DNA of 64,000 bases from Mycobacterium mantenii. Lineage in GTDB: Bacteria > Actinomycetota > Actinomycetes > Mycobacteriales > Mycobacteriaceae. The stretch is taken from positions 310,001 through 374,000 of the forward strand of contig NZ_AP022590.1 in the NCBI RefSeq assembly GCF_010731775.1, written 5' to 3'. How positions within the stretch are numbered: position 1 is the stretch's first letter; the number at the start of each line of letters is the position of its first letter. Positions 5,368 through 49,153 of this stretch are shown here, in pieces. A program made the translations under genes and the position numbers. The notes beneath the pieces are model-generated. The model worked only from the letters and a program-made list of their open reading frames with translations. It ran no database searches and was not told the DNA's origin.

Positions 5368-5408
5368 GGCACCCGTTCTACTCCGCGCGCGGAGCCCCGA
5401 ATTCACCG

Positions 5409-5455
5409 GCGCCGACCCGCCGCGCCCGGCTACGCCGCGCTTGCTATCGACGCTA
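5409..5455 (-). repeat. Dispersed intergenic repeat, copy A (minus orientation)
   Basis: Read on the minus strand this segment starts TAGCGTCGATAGCAAGCGCG and ends GGCGGGTCGGC. It is a degenerate copy of the element repeated three times at 47574-47738 and present at 14757 and 19610. Unlike those copies it lies between two divergent genes (dienelactone hydrolase and thyA) rather than at a stop codon, just upstream of the thyA GTG. Confidence 0.6.
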
Positions 5456-5465
5456 AGCTGACCGC

Positions 5466-11337: not shown

Positions 11338-13063
<1,726 letters not shown>

Positions 13064-14759: not shown

Positions 14760-14829
14760 TGGCGATCGCGATCGCGAGCGCGGTCCAGCCGGGCGAAGCG
14801 GGTCGCCATCATCAGGTCTGACCCCGCTA
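14757..14829 (+). repeat. Dispersed intergenic repeat, copy B, bounded by two stop codons
   Basis: The segment opens with the rnj stop TAG and ends with CTA, which is the stop TAG of the convergent methyltransferase gene on the other strand. The core (14757-14807) reads TAGTGGCGATCGCG, then AGCGCGG, GCCGGGCGAAGCGGGTCGCC, matching the 55-bp unit of the array at 47574. Position and boundaries are the same as in that array. Confidence 0.75.
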
Positions 14830-19523: not shown

Positions 19524-19585
19524 CGCCGAGCGTGAACTCAGGGCGAAAAACGGCCCGAATCCCTCCACGAGTTCACGCTCGGCGC
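19523..19585. repeat. Perfect 17-bp inverted repeat downstream of ftsK
   Basis: Left arm GCGCCGAGCGTGAACTC (19523-19539) and right arm GAGTTCACGCTCGGCGC (19569-19585) are perfect reverse complements, separated by 29 bases that include GGGCGAAAAACGGCCC. The left arm starts at the last base of the ftsK stop. It could act as a bidirectional terminator between ftsK and the convergent argA gene. It may also be a dispersed mycobacterial palindromic element, since similar sequences occur between genes in relatives (recollection, unchecked). Confidence 0.8.
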
Positions 19586-19609
19586 GCCACAGCCGCTACA
19601 ACCGATGGC

Positions 19610-19654
19610 GGCGACCCGCCGCGCCCGGCTGCGCCGCGCTTGCGATCGCCGCTA
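19610..19654 (-). repeat. Dispersed intergenic repeat, copy C (minus orientation)
   Basis: Read on the minus strand it begins TAGCGGCGATCGCAAGCGCG, then GCGCAGCCGGGCGCGGCGGG and TCGCC. The first three bases are exactly the stop codon of the minus-strand GNAT gene. It matches the unit of the 47574-47738 array at most positions and shares its placement at a TAG stop. Confidence 0.7.
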
Positions 19655-29883: not shown

Positions 29884-31208
29884 GGCTTGCGGGTCAGGGC
29901 CTCGACAGCCGCCTGCGCCCACTGCCGCCACTGCTCGGCGTTGGCCCTGGCATCCTCGGCTTCCTTGGTCCGGCCCGCCGCCGCGGCCTTCTGAGCCTGC
30001 TGTTCGTATTGCTCAGCGCGGGCCTGAAACTGCTCGGCCCGGGCCTGCGCCTGCGGGTCCGACCAGCCCGCGTCGCCGGCGTCGCGCACCTTCTTCTCGA
30101 CCGCGCGCAGCCGGCGCTCCAACTCGGCGGACCGCTCGCGCGGGACCTTGCCGATCGCATCCCACTTCTCGGTGATCGAGCGCAGCGCCGCGCGGGCGGC
30201 ATCGTGGTTGCTGGTGTCCAGCTTCTCCGCCTCGGCGAGCAGCGCCTCCTTGGCGGTCGCGTTGGAGTGGAACTCCGCGTCCTTGTCCGCCGTCACCGCG
30301 TTGCGGGCGGTGAAGAACACATCCTGGGCCGCCTTGAAACGCCGCCACAGGGCGTCATCGACCTCCCTGGTCGCCCGCCCGGCCGCCTTCCACTCGGTGA
30401 GCAGCTTGCGGAATTCGGCGCTGGTCGCGGCCCAGTCGGTCGAGTCGGACAACGCTTCTGCCCGCTCGCACAGGCTTTCCTTGGCTTGGCGGATCCCCGA
30501 ACGCTCCCGGTCCAACTCGGCGAAATGGGCTCCCCGCCGCCGGTTGAACGCCTCCCGGGCCGCGGAGTAGCGCTTCCACAACGCGTCGTCGACCTTGCGG
30601 TCCACACCGCTGATCGTTTTCCACTCATCGAGGATCGCGCGGAAGCGGTCGCCGGCGGCCTTCCATTGCGTCGAGTTGGCGGCCAAGTCCTCGGCCTCCG
30701 CGGCCAGCGCCTCCTTGCGCGCGGTCTGGGTGGCCCGATGCTCGTCGCGCCGGGAGCGCTCCGCGGCGACGGCCGCCTCGGCGTGTTCGGCGATGCTGGT
30801 CAGCCGGCCCGCGAGCGCGTCGACGTCGCCCAGCACGGCGGCCGTCGGCAGCGTTTCGGCCAGTTCGGCCGCGTGCGCCTTGATCTTGCGCGCGTCACCG
30901 GTCCCGGACGTCAGGCGCTCCTCCATGAGCGTGACCTCGGTGGCCAGGTCATCGAAGCGGCGGCCGAAATGGGCGAACGCGGCTTCACGATCGCCGGCCT
31001 GCCAGGAGCCGATGATGCGCTCGCCGGCCGCGCTGACCAGCCACACGGTGCCGTCGTCGTCCACGCGCCCGAATTGGTGCGGATCGCTGGGCGGCGGCAT
31101 CACCAGCGGGTGAGCGGTGGTGGGCCGCGGTGTCGGCCGGGGACCGGGACGCGGTCCCGGACGCGGCGCGGGCCGAGCTGAATCGTCGCGAGGCTCGTCA
31201 GCCGTCAT
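29880..31208 (-). CDS. DUF349-repeat protein (Rv2731-like)
   Basis: A 442-residue protein that begins with a proline-rich tail (residues 11-37, [20 protein letters not shown]), followed by a small domain with [16 protein letters not shown] and three helical DUF349 repeats, each with a W-K...[16 protein letters not shown] core (about residues 190-380). The C-terminus is a coiled coil rich in Ala, Gln and Glu. DUF349 proteins are cytosolic with no firmly assigned biochemical role. It converges on Rv2732c and is followed upstream by a 593-base gap. Confidence 0.85.
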
Positions 31209-46522: not shown

Positions 46523-46739
46523 CTCCGATCGCCTCCTCTCGGCAATCTCTTCAGGGTGCCCTACCAAGTGTCCCCCGAATCAGGCGGCACCAATATCTAT
46601 CAGCAAATTTCGTGCCCACGCTGTTAGCTGAAACGCGATAACACCCGGGCGTAATCCGGGATCATCGCATCGAGGACGCCGGCCACCGCGGTGGCGCACC
46701 GAGGTGCATGGAAGTCGGCTTGCCGGCGGCCGGTCAGGC

Positions 46740-47576
46740 ATGATGAAGGCGATGCGCATTCGGATCCTGATGCTGTGCTCGGTGGTGGGGGTGGCGACGT
46801 TGTTGACGTCGTGTCACCGTCCCATCGAGCAGGTGTCGGGTGCTCCGGTATCCGCTCCGCGCGTCGGTGGCCCGGTGCAGCGGCTCAGCCAGCCCGAGCA
46901 GAAGGCCGTCGCGGGCCCGGTCGAGCCGGACCGGCGCATCGGGGCGATCTTCATCGACGGCGGGCCGCTGCACGTCTGCACGGGATCGGTGGTGCATTCG
47001 ACGGGCGGCAACCTGATCATGACCGCCGCGCACTGCCTGGCCGGAGCCTCGCTGATCACCTTCGTTCCCGGTTTCGCCGGGGACGCCGCACCCGGCCCCG
47101 CCGACGTGTGGAAGGCCGACGCGGTCTATCTCGATCCACGCTGGACGGCCAGCAAGGATCCGCACGCCGACTACGCGATCGCGCGGGTCAGCAACGATTC
47201 CGGCGCTCCCGTCGAGTCCCGGGTCGGCCTGGCGCTGACGCTGGGTGTGACGCCTCCGCCGGGCAGCCGCGTCACCGTGCTGGGCTATCCCGCGGGGGTG
47301 GGCGGATCGCCCATCGGGTGTCAGGCCAACACGTCGGTCACCGACACCGGCTTCCCCGCATTGGCGTGCGAAGGGATGGTGGACGGCACCAGCGGCGCGC
47401 CCTGGGTCAGCGGCACCACACTCATCGGCCTGATCGGCGGTCTCGAGCGGGGCGGGTGCGCCGCGAACATGTCGTATTCTGCACCGTTCGACGCGCACAC
47501 CGCGGAGCTGCTGACCCGTGCCGAGGTCGGTGGGCCCGGCGATCCGGTCTCGGGCGACCTCCAAGACGCCTGTTAG
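46740..47576 (+). CDS. Trypsin-like serine protease, predicted lipoprotein
   Basis: A 278-residue exported protease. The N-terminal hydrophobic segment ends in a lipobox L-L-T-S-C25, so it is probably lipid-anchored outside the membrane. The chymotrypsin-fold triad is H98 (TAAHC), D144 (HADYA) and S218 (GTSGAP); cysteines 80/99 and 194/210 could form disulphides. ATG 46740 is followed by in-frame ATGs at 46743 and 46752. M. tuberculosis lacks a protease gene between its Rv2714 and sthA, as far as I recall. Its TAG stop starts the 3 x 55 bp repeat array. Confidence 0.85.
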   Translation: MMKAMRIRILMLCSVVGVATLLTSCHRPIEQVSGAPVSAPRVGGPVQRLSQPEQKAVAGPVEPDRRIGAIFIDGGPLHVCTGSVVHSTGGNLIMTAAHCLAGASLITFVPGFAGDAAPGPADVWKADAVYLDPRWTASKDPHADYAIARVSNDSGAPVESRVGLALTLGVTPPPGSRVTVLGYPAGVGGSPIGCQANTSVTDTGFPALACEGMVDGTSGAPWVSGTTLIGLIGGLERGGCAANMSYSAPFDAHTAELLTRAEVGGPGDPVSGDLQDAC

Positions 47577-47738
47577 TGGCGATCGCCAGCGCGGGGGAGC
47601 CGGGCGCAGCGGGTCGCCGCCGTCGGGCTAGTGGCGATCGCCAGCGCGGGGGAGCCGGGCGCAGCGGGTCGCCGCCGTCGGGCTAGTGGCGATCGCCAGC
47701 GCGGGGGAGCCGGGCGCAGCGGGTCGCCACGGTCGGGC
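47574..47738 (+). repeat. Tandem array of three 55-bp units between two stop codons
   Basis: Three units of exactly 55 bases begin at 47574, 47629 and 47684, each with TAGTGGCGATCGCCAGCGCG, then GGGGAGCCGGGCGCAGCGGG and TCGCC. Units 1 and 2 appear identical; unit 3 differs near its end (CCACGG for CCGCCG). The first TAG is the protease stop. The base after unit 3 continues CTAG, where CTA at 47738-47740 is the stop of sthA on the minus strand. The array therefore exactly fills the gap between the two genes. It is likely a VNTR locus. Confidence 0.9.
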
Positions 47739-49153
47739 TAGTGGCGGAACTGGTTGAGCGCCCGGACTTTGTTCATCACGTCCAGCGCCGCGACCTTGTA
47801 GGCCTCGGAGAACGTCGGGTAGTTGAACACGGCGTCCACCAGGTACTCGACGGTGCCGCCGCAGCCCATGACGGCCTGCCCGATGTGCACCATCTCGGTG
47901 GCGCTGGTGCCGAAGATGTGAACGCCGAGCACCTTGAGGTCGTCGGTGGACACCAGCAGCTTGAGCATGCCGTAGGAGTCGCCGGCGATCTGGCCCCGGG
48001 CGAGCTCCCGGTACCTGGCCACGCCGACCTCGTAGGGGATGGCGTTCTTCGTCAGCTCGACCTCGGTGGCGCCGACGTAGGAGACCTCAGGAATGGAGTA
48101 GATGCCGATCGGCTGCAGCTCGGTGATGCCGTCGCACGCTTCCCCGAACGCGTGGTAGGCGGCCAGCCGTCCCTGCTCCATCGACGTCGCGGCCAGCGCG
48201 GGGAAGCCGATCACGTCGCCGACGGCATAGATGTGGGGCACCTTGGTCTGAAAATTGTCGTCGACGAAGATCCGCCCGCGGTTGTCGGCTTCCAGCTCGG
48301 CGTTGTGCAGATCGAGGTGATCGGTCTGGCCCTGCCGTCCGGCCGAATACATCACCGTCTCGGCGGGAATCTGCTTGCCGCTGGCCAGGGTCGTGACGGT
48401 GCCCGCCGACCCGACGTCGACCGCGGTCACCTCCTCGCCGAACCGGAACGTCACCGCCAGGTCGCGCAGGTGGAACTTCAGCGCCTCGACGACCTCGGGG
48501 TCGCAGAAGTCGAGCATGTCGTTGCGCTTTTCCACGACGGTGACCTTGGTGCCCAGCGCGGCGAACATCGAGGCGTACTCGATGCCGATGACGCCCGCGC
48601 CGACCACCACCATCGAGGTGGGCAGCGACTTGAGATCGAGGATGCCGTCGGAGTCGAGCACCCGGTGTTCGTCGAACTCGACGCCGGAGGGCCGCGCCGG
48701 CCGGGTACCGGTGGCGATGACGACGTATTTGCCGCTGATGGTTATCTTTTCGCGCCGCGACGGGTCTTCGACCTCGATGGTGTGCGGGTCGACGAAACGC
48801 CCGTGGCCGATCAACAGGTCGACGCGGTTGCGCATCAGCTGGCTGCGCACCACGTCGACCTCCTTGCCGATCACGTGCTGGGTGCGGGCCAGCAGATCGG
48901 CCGGGGTGATCTTCTCCTTGACGCGGTAGCTCGCGCCGTAGAGTTCGCGCTGGCTCATCCCGGTGAGGTAGAGGACCGCCTCGCGCAACGTCTTCGACGG
49001 GATGGTGCCGGTCTGGACGCACACGCCGCCGAGCATCTGGCCGCGTTCGACGACGGCGACCGACTTACCGAGCTTGGCCGAGGCGATGGCGGCCTTCTGT
49101 CCGCCGGGCCCGGACCCGAGGACCACCATGTCGTACTCTTGCGCCGAACTCAT
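47738..49153 (-). CDS. sthA: Soluble pyridine nucleotide transhydrogenase SthA
   Basis: A 471-residue flavoprotein that exchanges reducing equivalents between NADPH and NADH. The FAD motif [10 protein letters not shown] is near residue 12 and the NAD(P) motif [17 protein letters not shown] near 180. The segment that holds the redox disulphide in lipoamide dehydrogenases reads [12 protein letters not shown], with only one cysteine, as expected for SthA. The dimerisation domain is intact. It converges on the serine protease with the repeat array between them. Confidence 0.93.

Follow-up and report, generated by a model that had tools for sequence, protein, structure and literature searches.

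A Probably Mobile Family of Hairpin Repeats of about 50 bp, Mostly at Stop Codons, in Mycobacterium

The Repeat Array between the Protease Gene and sthA

The window, the whole stretch of 64,000 nucleotides that was analyzed, corresponds to positions 310001–374000 of the Mycobacterium mantenii genome, which consists of one contig of 6.19 Mb. In it, a gene for a trypsin-like protease (Trypsin_2; 46704–47576, plus strand) and sthA, the gene for an Si-specific NAD(P)+ transhydrogenase (47738–49153, minus strand), are convergent, and a repeat array fills the gap between both stops. Three 55-bp units on the plus strand, at 47574–47628, 47629–47683, and 47684–47738, can be read in the sequence and were reported by TRF, which placed the array at 47574–47746 with 3.1 copies and 98% matches. 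The original prediction described three exact repeats. Its starts and its period of 55 are correct, but exactness holds for units 1 and 2 alone, as unit 3 has A in place of G at 47729 and G in place of C at 47731. An incomplete unit 4, TAGTGGCG (47739–47746, plus strand), doubles as a portion of the 3′ end of sthA on the minus strand. Each unit contains the hairpin described below; in unit 1, the 5′ arm of its stem (model columns 5–15) lies at 47576–47586 and the 3′ arm (columns 38–49) at 47609–47620, both on the plus strand, and the arms of units 2 and 3 follow at +55 and +110.

The borders of the array are part of the stop codons. The left border, TTAG (47573–47576), includes the protease stop, and the first triplet of the array is indeed the TAG of the protease reading frame 46704–47576. 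The right border, CTAG (47738–47741), is the sthA stop on the minus strand. The array was said to end where this stop begins; the two do meet, but they have one base in common, since 47738 is the C of CTA (47738–47740). Similarly, the claim that each junction reads CTAG is right at 47628, 47683, and 47738 and wrong at 47573, where TTAG is found. Because 55 equals 1 modulo 3, the TAGs at the unit boundaries occupy all three frames. A comparison of 47400–47900 with Rfam, at E up to 1, gave no match.

A Large Family in One Genome and One Genus

When the array sequence was used as a query, 46 matching places were found in the M. mantenii genome. The search was sharpened by iterated profiles and then by a covariance model (R1), which gave at least 149 matches (149 of 150 candidates scored, E up to 0.1); 7 of these look like duplicates from overlapping contig ends, and 3 have E > 0.001. 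A 35-base core with up to three mismatches matched the genome 120 times, compared with 0 matches for the reversed control pattern, so the family is not a product of chance. The array is one site of a large family and no lone minisatellite. As had been anticipated for a repeat with a preference for stop codons, the genome-wide search for the unit brought up many more copies, and these mostly adjoin stop codons.

The fetched loci contain 77 arrays of at least 25 bits: 47 single, 9 double, 12 triple, 5 four-unit, 2 five-unit, and 2 six-unit. The periods range from 54 to 60 in 29 multi-unit arrays. These 77 arrays correspond to about 76 places because the contig ends overlap by about 36 kb and one place was seen twice, as L059 and L070 (other loci and genomes are likewise given L and G numbers). 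Both were kept among the 77 arrays and among the 67 clean arrays discussed below, while L030 and L083 were excluded from the own-genome counts owing to the same overlap. Contig positions 1–36000 and 6148900–6185541 (L070/L059, L031/L030, L052/L083) share about 99.5% identity where they were compared; their offsets vary by about 1.3 kb, which could reflect an untrimmed circular overlap or a genuine difference. The region from 100 to 640 kb holds 23 arrays, some of them weak, and is denser than the rest of the genome.

Four arrays of the family lie in the window. Besides the array at sthA, there are single-unit copies at 5408–5456 (minus strand), at 14766–14813 (plus strand) in a gap between convergent genes, and at 19604–19654 (minus strand) with a 12-bp flanking direct repeat. 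Beside the last copy, positions 19525–19600 form a long palindrome, GCGCCGAGCGTGAACT..AGTTCACGCTCGGCGC, and other palindromes occur at the same gene boundary in some relatives. Its motif has 4 matches in 522 kb of M. mantenii loci, two of which are its own two strands.

The genus survey gave matches in 56 of 118 genomes at E up to 1e-4, four of them with only 1 or 2, while the counts per genome reach at least 49 at the upper end. Two carrier genomes are 3.3 Mb in size. Across the taxonomic family, 7 of 201 genomes matched, all belonging to Mycobacterium and thereby to 1 of 31 genera. The 25 top-scoring genomes for sthA, ending with G029, are all carriers; the next five (G018, G109, G090, G087, G084) are not. 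Judged by the sthA loci, the closest named relatives are M. colombiense and its kin. Phage sequences gave no match to the unit, and among plasmids, two records matched, from M. riyadhense and M. branderi.

Placement at Gene 3′ Ends

Genes were predicted with a crude, home-made codon-usage finder trained on 12 long open reading frames. Of the 77 arrays, 67 are clear of predicted genes, and the 10 overlapping ones were excluded from the following counts. The clean arrays divide into 25 in convergent, 33 in tandem, and 9 in divergent gaps. In a background of 864 kb, made up of the syntenic relatives and the window, convergent gaps account for 14,013 of 133,045 intergenic bases, yet they hold 25 of the 67 clean arrays (p 7e-9); when gaps are counted by junctions, with 171 of 780 being convergent, p is 0.003. 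The habit of adjoining stop codons claimed in the original prediction is a family trait: a gene 3′ end flanks 58 arrays, and 46 of these are within 10 nt of the stop, compared with 6 within 10 nt of the start among the 42 flanked by a 5′ end. Even in tandem gaps, 27 of 33 arrays are closer to the 3′ end. TAG stops were found in 28 of 33 genes entering the left side, a figure inflated because the unit itself supplies TAG, and in 11 of 22 entering the right side, compared with 109 of 365 elsewhere. Stop codons may be chosen targets or merely tolerated safe sites, and the closeness to them may be partly a matter of survival or an effect of the element’s own TAG.

The Unit as a Covarying Hairpin

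The consensus nnTAGTGGCGATCGCnAGCGCGGCGnAGCCGGGCGnAGCGGGTCGCCACCATC folds into an outer stem of 11 pairs and an inner stem of 6 pairs. This structure was evaluated in two alignments. The first (A1) is gap-free and contains 41 of 69 distinct units, hand-picked, mostly one per locus, with truncated units excluded. In it, 97.6% of 697 cells are paired, 6 of the 17 pairs have double-sided changes, none of 500 shuffles matches on any measure, and shifting the pairing partner worsens every measure. The second (A2) contains 27 of the relatives’ 36 units; the nine omitted units (position 1501, L084–L091 and L093) had been selected by model score. Here, 95.9% of the cells are paired and 5 pairs are double-changed, with 0 of 500 shuffles reaching the values on four of five measures and 14 of 500 doing so for pair types. 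The unit is a covarying hairpin, and what is conserved is the hairpin and not the exact arm sequence.

The variation is concentrated in the outer arm, where columns 6–9 face columns 45–48. In A1, 5 of 41 units fail to form pair 7–47, and in A2, 7 of 27 fail to form pair 8–46. The T12–G42 pair is invariant in A1 and forms a wobble solely on the plus strand. Folding is better on this strand, with a mean MFE of −28.7 compared with −24.6 on the minus strand; z is below −2 for 27 of 41 units on the plus strand and 14 of 41 on the minus strand. The unit of the sthA array itself is a weak example of the family: on the plus strand, its folding does not surpass that of shuffles (z −0.67), and on the minus strand, z is −1.41.

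In five loci (L058, L059, L063, L066, L080), one unit is nested in the apical loop of another, apparently twice in L058 and L066. The left junctions are closely similar, which suggests either a composite form that went on to spread or recurrent insertions into the loop. The original reading, which saw a variable tandem repeat at stop codons, holds in part, but it overlooked the hairpin, the niche at 3′ ends, the nesting in loops, and the IS110-family remnant on the unit in two species.

Filled and Empty Sites

Syntenic regions were read in 14 relatives of the genus (60 kb each, two of 40 kb), together with 80 named loci around sthA; about 10 of 81 sthA sites were unreadable by motif. Plain empty sites between the protease gene and sthA read CTGCTAGTGGCGGAACTGG in G038, TTAGCGGCGG in G100, G062, and G036, and TTAGTGGCG in L172, L173, and L179. 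It is at sthA alone that the pre-insertion site is well read, as a CTAG or TTAG stop. Of the 80 named loci, 10 carry one or two units (degenerate in L167), for example a single unit in L164, L165, and L177 and a double one in L175 and L191. G046 also has two units, and M. mantenii has three. The border TTAGTGGCG flanks the unit on both sides in L164 and L165, whereas all copies in G046 read TAGCGGCG, matching the sthA flank of that genome. G031 carries an inverted copy at the same boundary, and in L171, a unit tail remains as a deletion scar.

A wider comparison of M. mantenii with G046 covered 460 kb, in which 20 of its arrays (19 places) were comparable. Five places are occupied in G046, three of them with a different copy number, and 14 are without a recognizable unit. 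In one such contrast, the array of L031 has an unoccupied counterpart that continues from the same left flank. Two of the 14 places (L043, L063) look like decayed copies, and L028 is doubtful. At the first array of L022, the 27 bases to the left cannot be aligned and resemble a truncated inverted unit, so this place, which also seems to be decayed, does not count as a clean empty site. The place of the copy at 14766–14813 is without a unit in G046, G029, G017, and G116 and has one unit in G080. At most places, we take the difference to stem from an insertion and not from a loss. Copy number, which had been expected to vary in the manner of a VNTR, does differ among relatives in species-level records.

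The direct repeats at the borders are about 4 to 12 bp long. For 49 single copies, the mean longest flanking match is 5.04, compared with 4.53 after permutation, and none of 300 permutations reaches 5.04; matches of at least 6 bp occur in 11 of 49, which is not unusual against 8.1 expected. A uniform or fixed-length target duplication was sought at the copies and not found. In the 29 multi-unit arrays, the right flank agrees with the 5′ arm in 22 arrays at column 7, in 17 at column 8, and in 6 to 16 at columns 11–16; this match is biased because the last unit of an array may be a partial one. In L046 and in the case of 14766, the arm is missing from the right copy.

An IS110-Family Element on the Units

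A remnant of an insertion sequence sits on the unit in two species. In M. arosiense, it lies at 11526–12041 of L168 and splits the same array, the one at sthA, between TAG and the first unit, so that the sequence runs TTAG, ACGGTATG..CATATCA, and then GTGGCGATCGCC. In M. mantenii, an element of the same group lies in L021 (1893–3001), likewise ahead of the first unit and between TAG and GTGGCGATCGC; an open fragment of this element matches Transposase_20 (IS116/IS110/IS902 family). The point of the unit is identical in both species, with two cases in all. The two insertions look separate because the core of the L168 unit, GATCGCCAG, is of the sthA type. Among 28 distinct junctions of the element, many touch no hairpin, and the two at the repeat score −1.2 and 0.1. 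The three G065 copies all adjoin another kind of hairpin (z −2.0, −3.8, and −5.1). The IS110 family is the bridge-RNA class of transposons, and the unit offers a possible natural target of one of its members, with a candidate junction between TAG and TGGCGATCGC.

How the Hairpins May Have Spread

These data are probably best explained by a mobile, REP-like family of hairpins of about 50 bp that is tandemly amplified and located mostly at stop codons. The family, its hairpin, its niche, its presence or absence at given places, and the change in copy number between relatives are all shown by the data. Such hairpins would be non-coding elements of Mycobacterium that apparently move without a gene of their own; no mobilizing gene was found for the family. 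They would insert chiefly on a stop codon or directly after it, and insertion is seen most clearly from the empty sites at sthA. Genes would not suffer from it, since TAG or CTA is brought in or preserved at the junction, and near-neutrality at stop codons can be inferred. The arrays would then expand and contract by way of the short direct repeats that border them, a process suggested by the partial units at array ends and the differing copy numbers. At sthA, an ancestor of the M. colombiense-like group may have acquired a single insertion in the TTAG or CTAG common to the two convergent genes, and the array would later have grown to three units. The hairpin may matter for spreading, or it may be tolerated as a 3′-end structure.

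A bolder version, which we regard as rather unlikely, is that the 3′ arm selects its targets, TAGYGGCG-like sequence at stops, through its complementarity to the element’s own 5′ arm and that insertion rebuilds both stops and hairpin. The agreement of right flanks with the 5′ arm, biased as it is, lies behind this idea. The family would then be a Y1-free counterpart of REP that nests in loops and hosts an IS110-family element. If true, MIRU and the hairpin family would share out the 5′ and 3′ ends of genes.

The main competitor holds that the hairpins are functional 3′-end signals under selection (terminators, mRNA stabilizers, or insulators between convergent genes), with mobility being secondary. 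In its favor, the arrays concentrate at 3′ ends and within convergent gaps, the hairpin is maintained by covariation, and z falls below −2 in the units counted above, but on balance it is unlikely. None of 139 units has TTTT within 12 nt past the hairpin on either strand, as an intrinsic terminator would, and a terminator scan of 47300–48000 around the sthA array found no terminator-like site. Moreover, orientation in the tandem gaps is not clearly biased (++ 19, −− 14), divergent gaps hold nine of the clean arrays, and G046 does without a recognizable unit at most of the comparable places. It is very doubtful that the hairpins are moved by the IS110-family element as their autonomous partner; it would more likely be a guest landing on them. 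The remnant does abut the unit at the same position in L021 and L168, and the G065 copies abut another hairpin; however, the other end of the element in L021 has no unit, nor do its right junctions in the carriers G083, G091, and G101, and the evidence consists of two cases.

The other two alternatives assign the unit to known repeats. In enterobacteria, REP/BIME sequences are likewise short, clustered, extragenic hairpins near gene ends. IS621 of Escherichia coli is an IS110-family element that docks at REP, to which the remnants on the unit in two species may be a parallel, and the CTAG-like foot and the tandem clusters add to the resemblance. Nevertheless, a true REP family moved by a Y1 transposase (RAYT/TnpA_REP) is improbable. 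The M. mantenii genome has no Y1_Tnp, and this domain is found in 10 of 56 carrier genomes and 11 of 62 repeat-free genomes of the genus. The REP foot is a conserved GTAG/GGAG, whereas the foot here is CTAG or TTAG at stop codons and otherwise variable, and the arrays are composed of single hairpins in a head-to-tail arrangement. The original prediction compared the array with MIRUs in habit but not in sequence, and this judgment stands. Dispersed tandem units of 50–60 bp between genes, variable copy number, and contact with stop codons are common to both, but it is highly improbable that the unit is a MIRU subtype. The MIRU core forms a separate, unrelated family with 44 matches in the same genome, and at the MIRU copies of ten loci read, the unit profile scores at chance level. 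The MIRU copies read here, with their RBS-like stretch, occupy gene 5′ ends, lying just before a start codon in 11 of 12 reads (four from two overlapping loci), whereas the hairpin family does not follow the MIRU placement ahead of start codons or between co-directional genes and is found mostly at 3′ ends (6/42 near a start vs. 46/58 near a stop). In passages of PMC4128351, 17 of the 24 loci used for MIRU typing are given as overlapping with 5′ UTRs of M. bovis. The 44 MIRU places of M. mantenii are partly tandem, with a spacing of 50–53 bp, and the copies read precede start codons.

The favored reading of a mobile hairpin family also invites comparison with MITEs, which are short, non-coding, and dispersed and have inverted arms and direct repeats, as found here at some borders. 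A MITE would have a target duplication of fixed length and a related autonomous transposon; the border repeats here vary from about 4 to 12 bp, and no candidate for such a parent element was seen in the loci read. The set of filled and empty sites provides material for learning how such hairpins move.

Traces of the Unit in Earlier Work

The sequence of the unit has already appeared in print, both as primers for rep-PCR and within a deletion described for BCG, as far as the consulted parts of these papers go. In the titles and abstract openings searched, which included few subscription journals, it is nowhere described as a family of hairpin elements with a niche at 3′ ends. Parts of the repeats thus serve the typing of mycobacteria, while their nature is unaccounted for in the literature searched; a single hairpin family with a 3′-end niche would explain the variable number at typing loci.

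The rep-PCR primers 1, 2, 4, and 5 for M. intracellulare are reverse complements of parts of the unit, while primer 3 is the MIRU core and distinct from it (PMC10117815). The consulted parts of that paper report 226 loci for the five primers in strain ATCC 13950, place the primer sequences in genes or hypothetical proteins, and give Primer 2 as also present in M. tuberculosis, M. kansasii, M. avium, M. ulcerans, and others; they contain no analysis of hairpins, insertion, or stop codons. The Rv3833 reverse primer in the accessible part of PMC4916473 contains 16 bases of the unit.

Two further records are treated as single loci in the parts of the papers at hand. An intergenic deletion of 79 bp in BCG has the arms and the core of the unit, and the loop region there holds a further small hairpin (PMC9870133). 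The rnc-fpg VNTR has repeat lengths of 37+18 and 37+16+26, and the repeat length went with the fpg1 mRNA level (PMC2734929, in part). These lengths would fit 55 and 79 bp, and the BCG deletion may be the same locus. The extra structure, a mini-hairpin of about 25 bp with C/G runs, is present in the loop region of the unit both in G017 (region position 30234) and in the BCG deletion as given in the accessible part of PMC9870133, and it is perhaps another tiny mobile hairpin.
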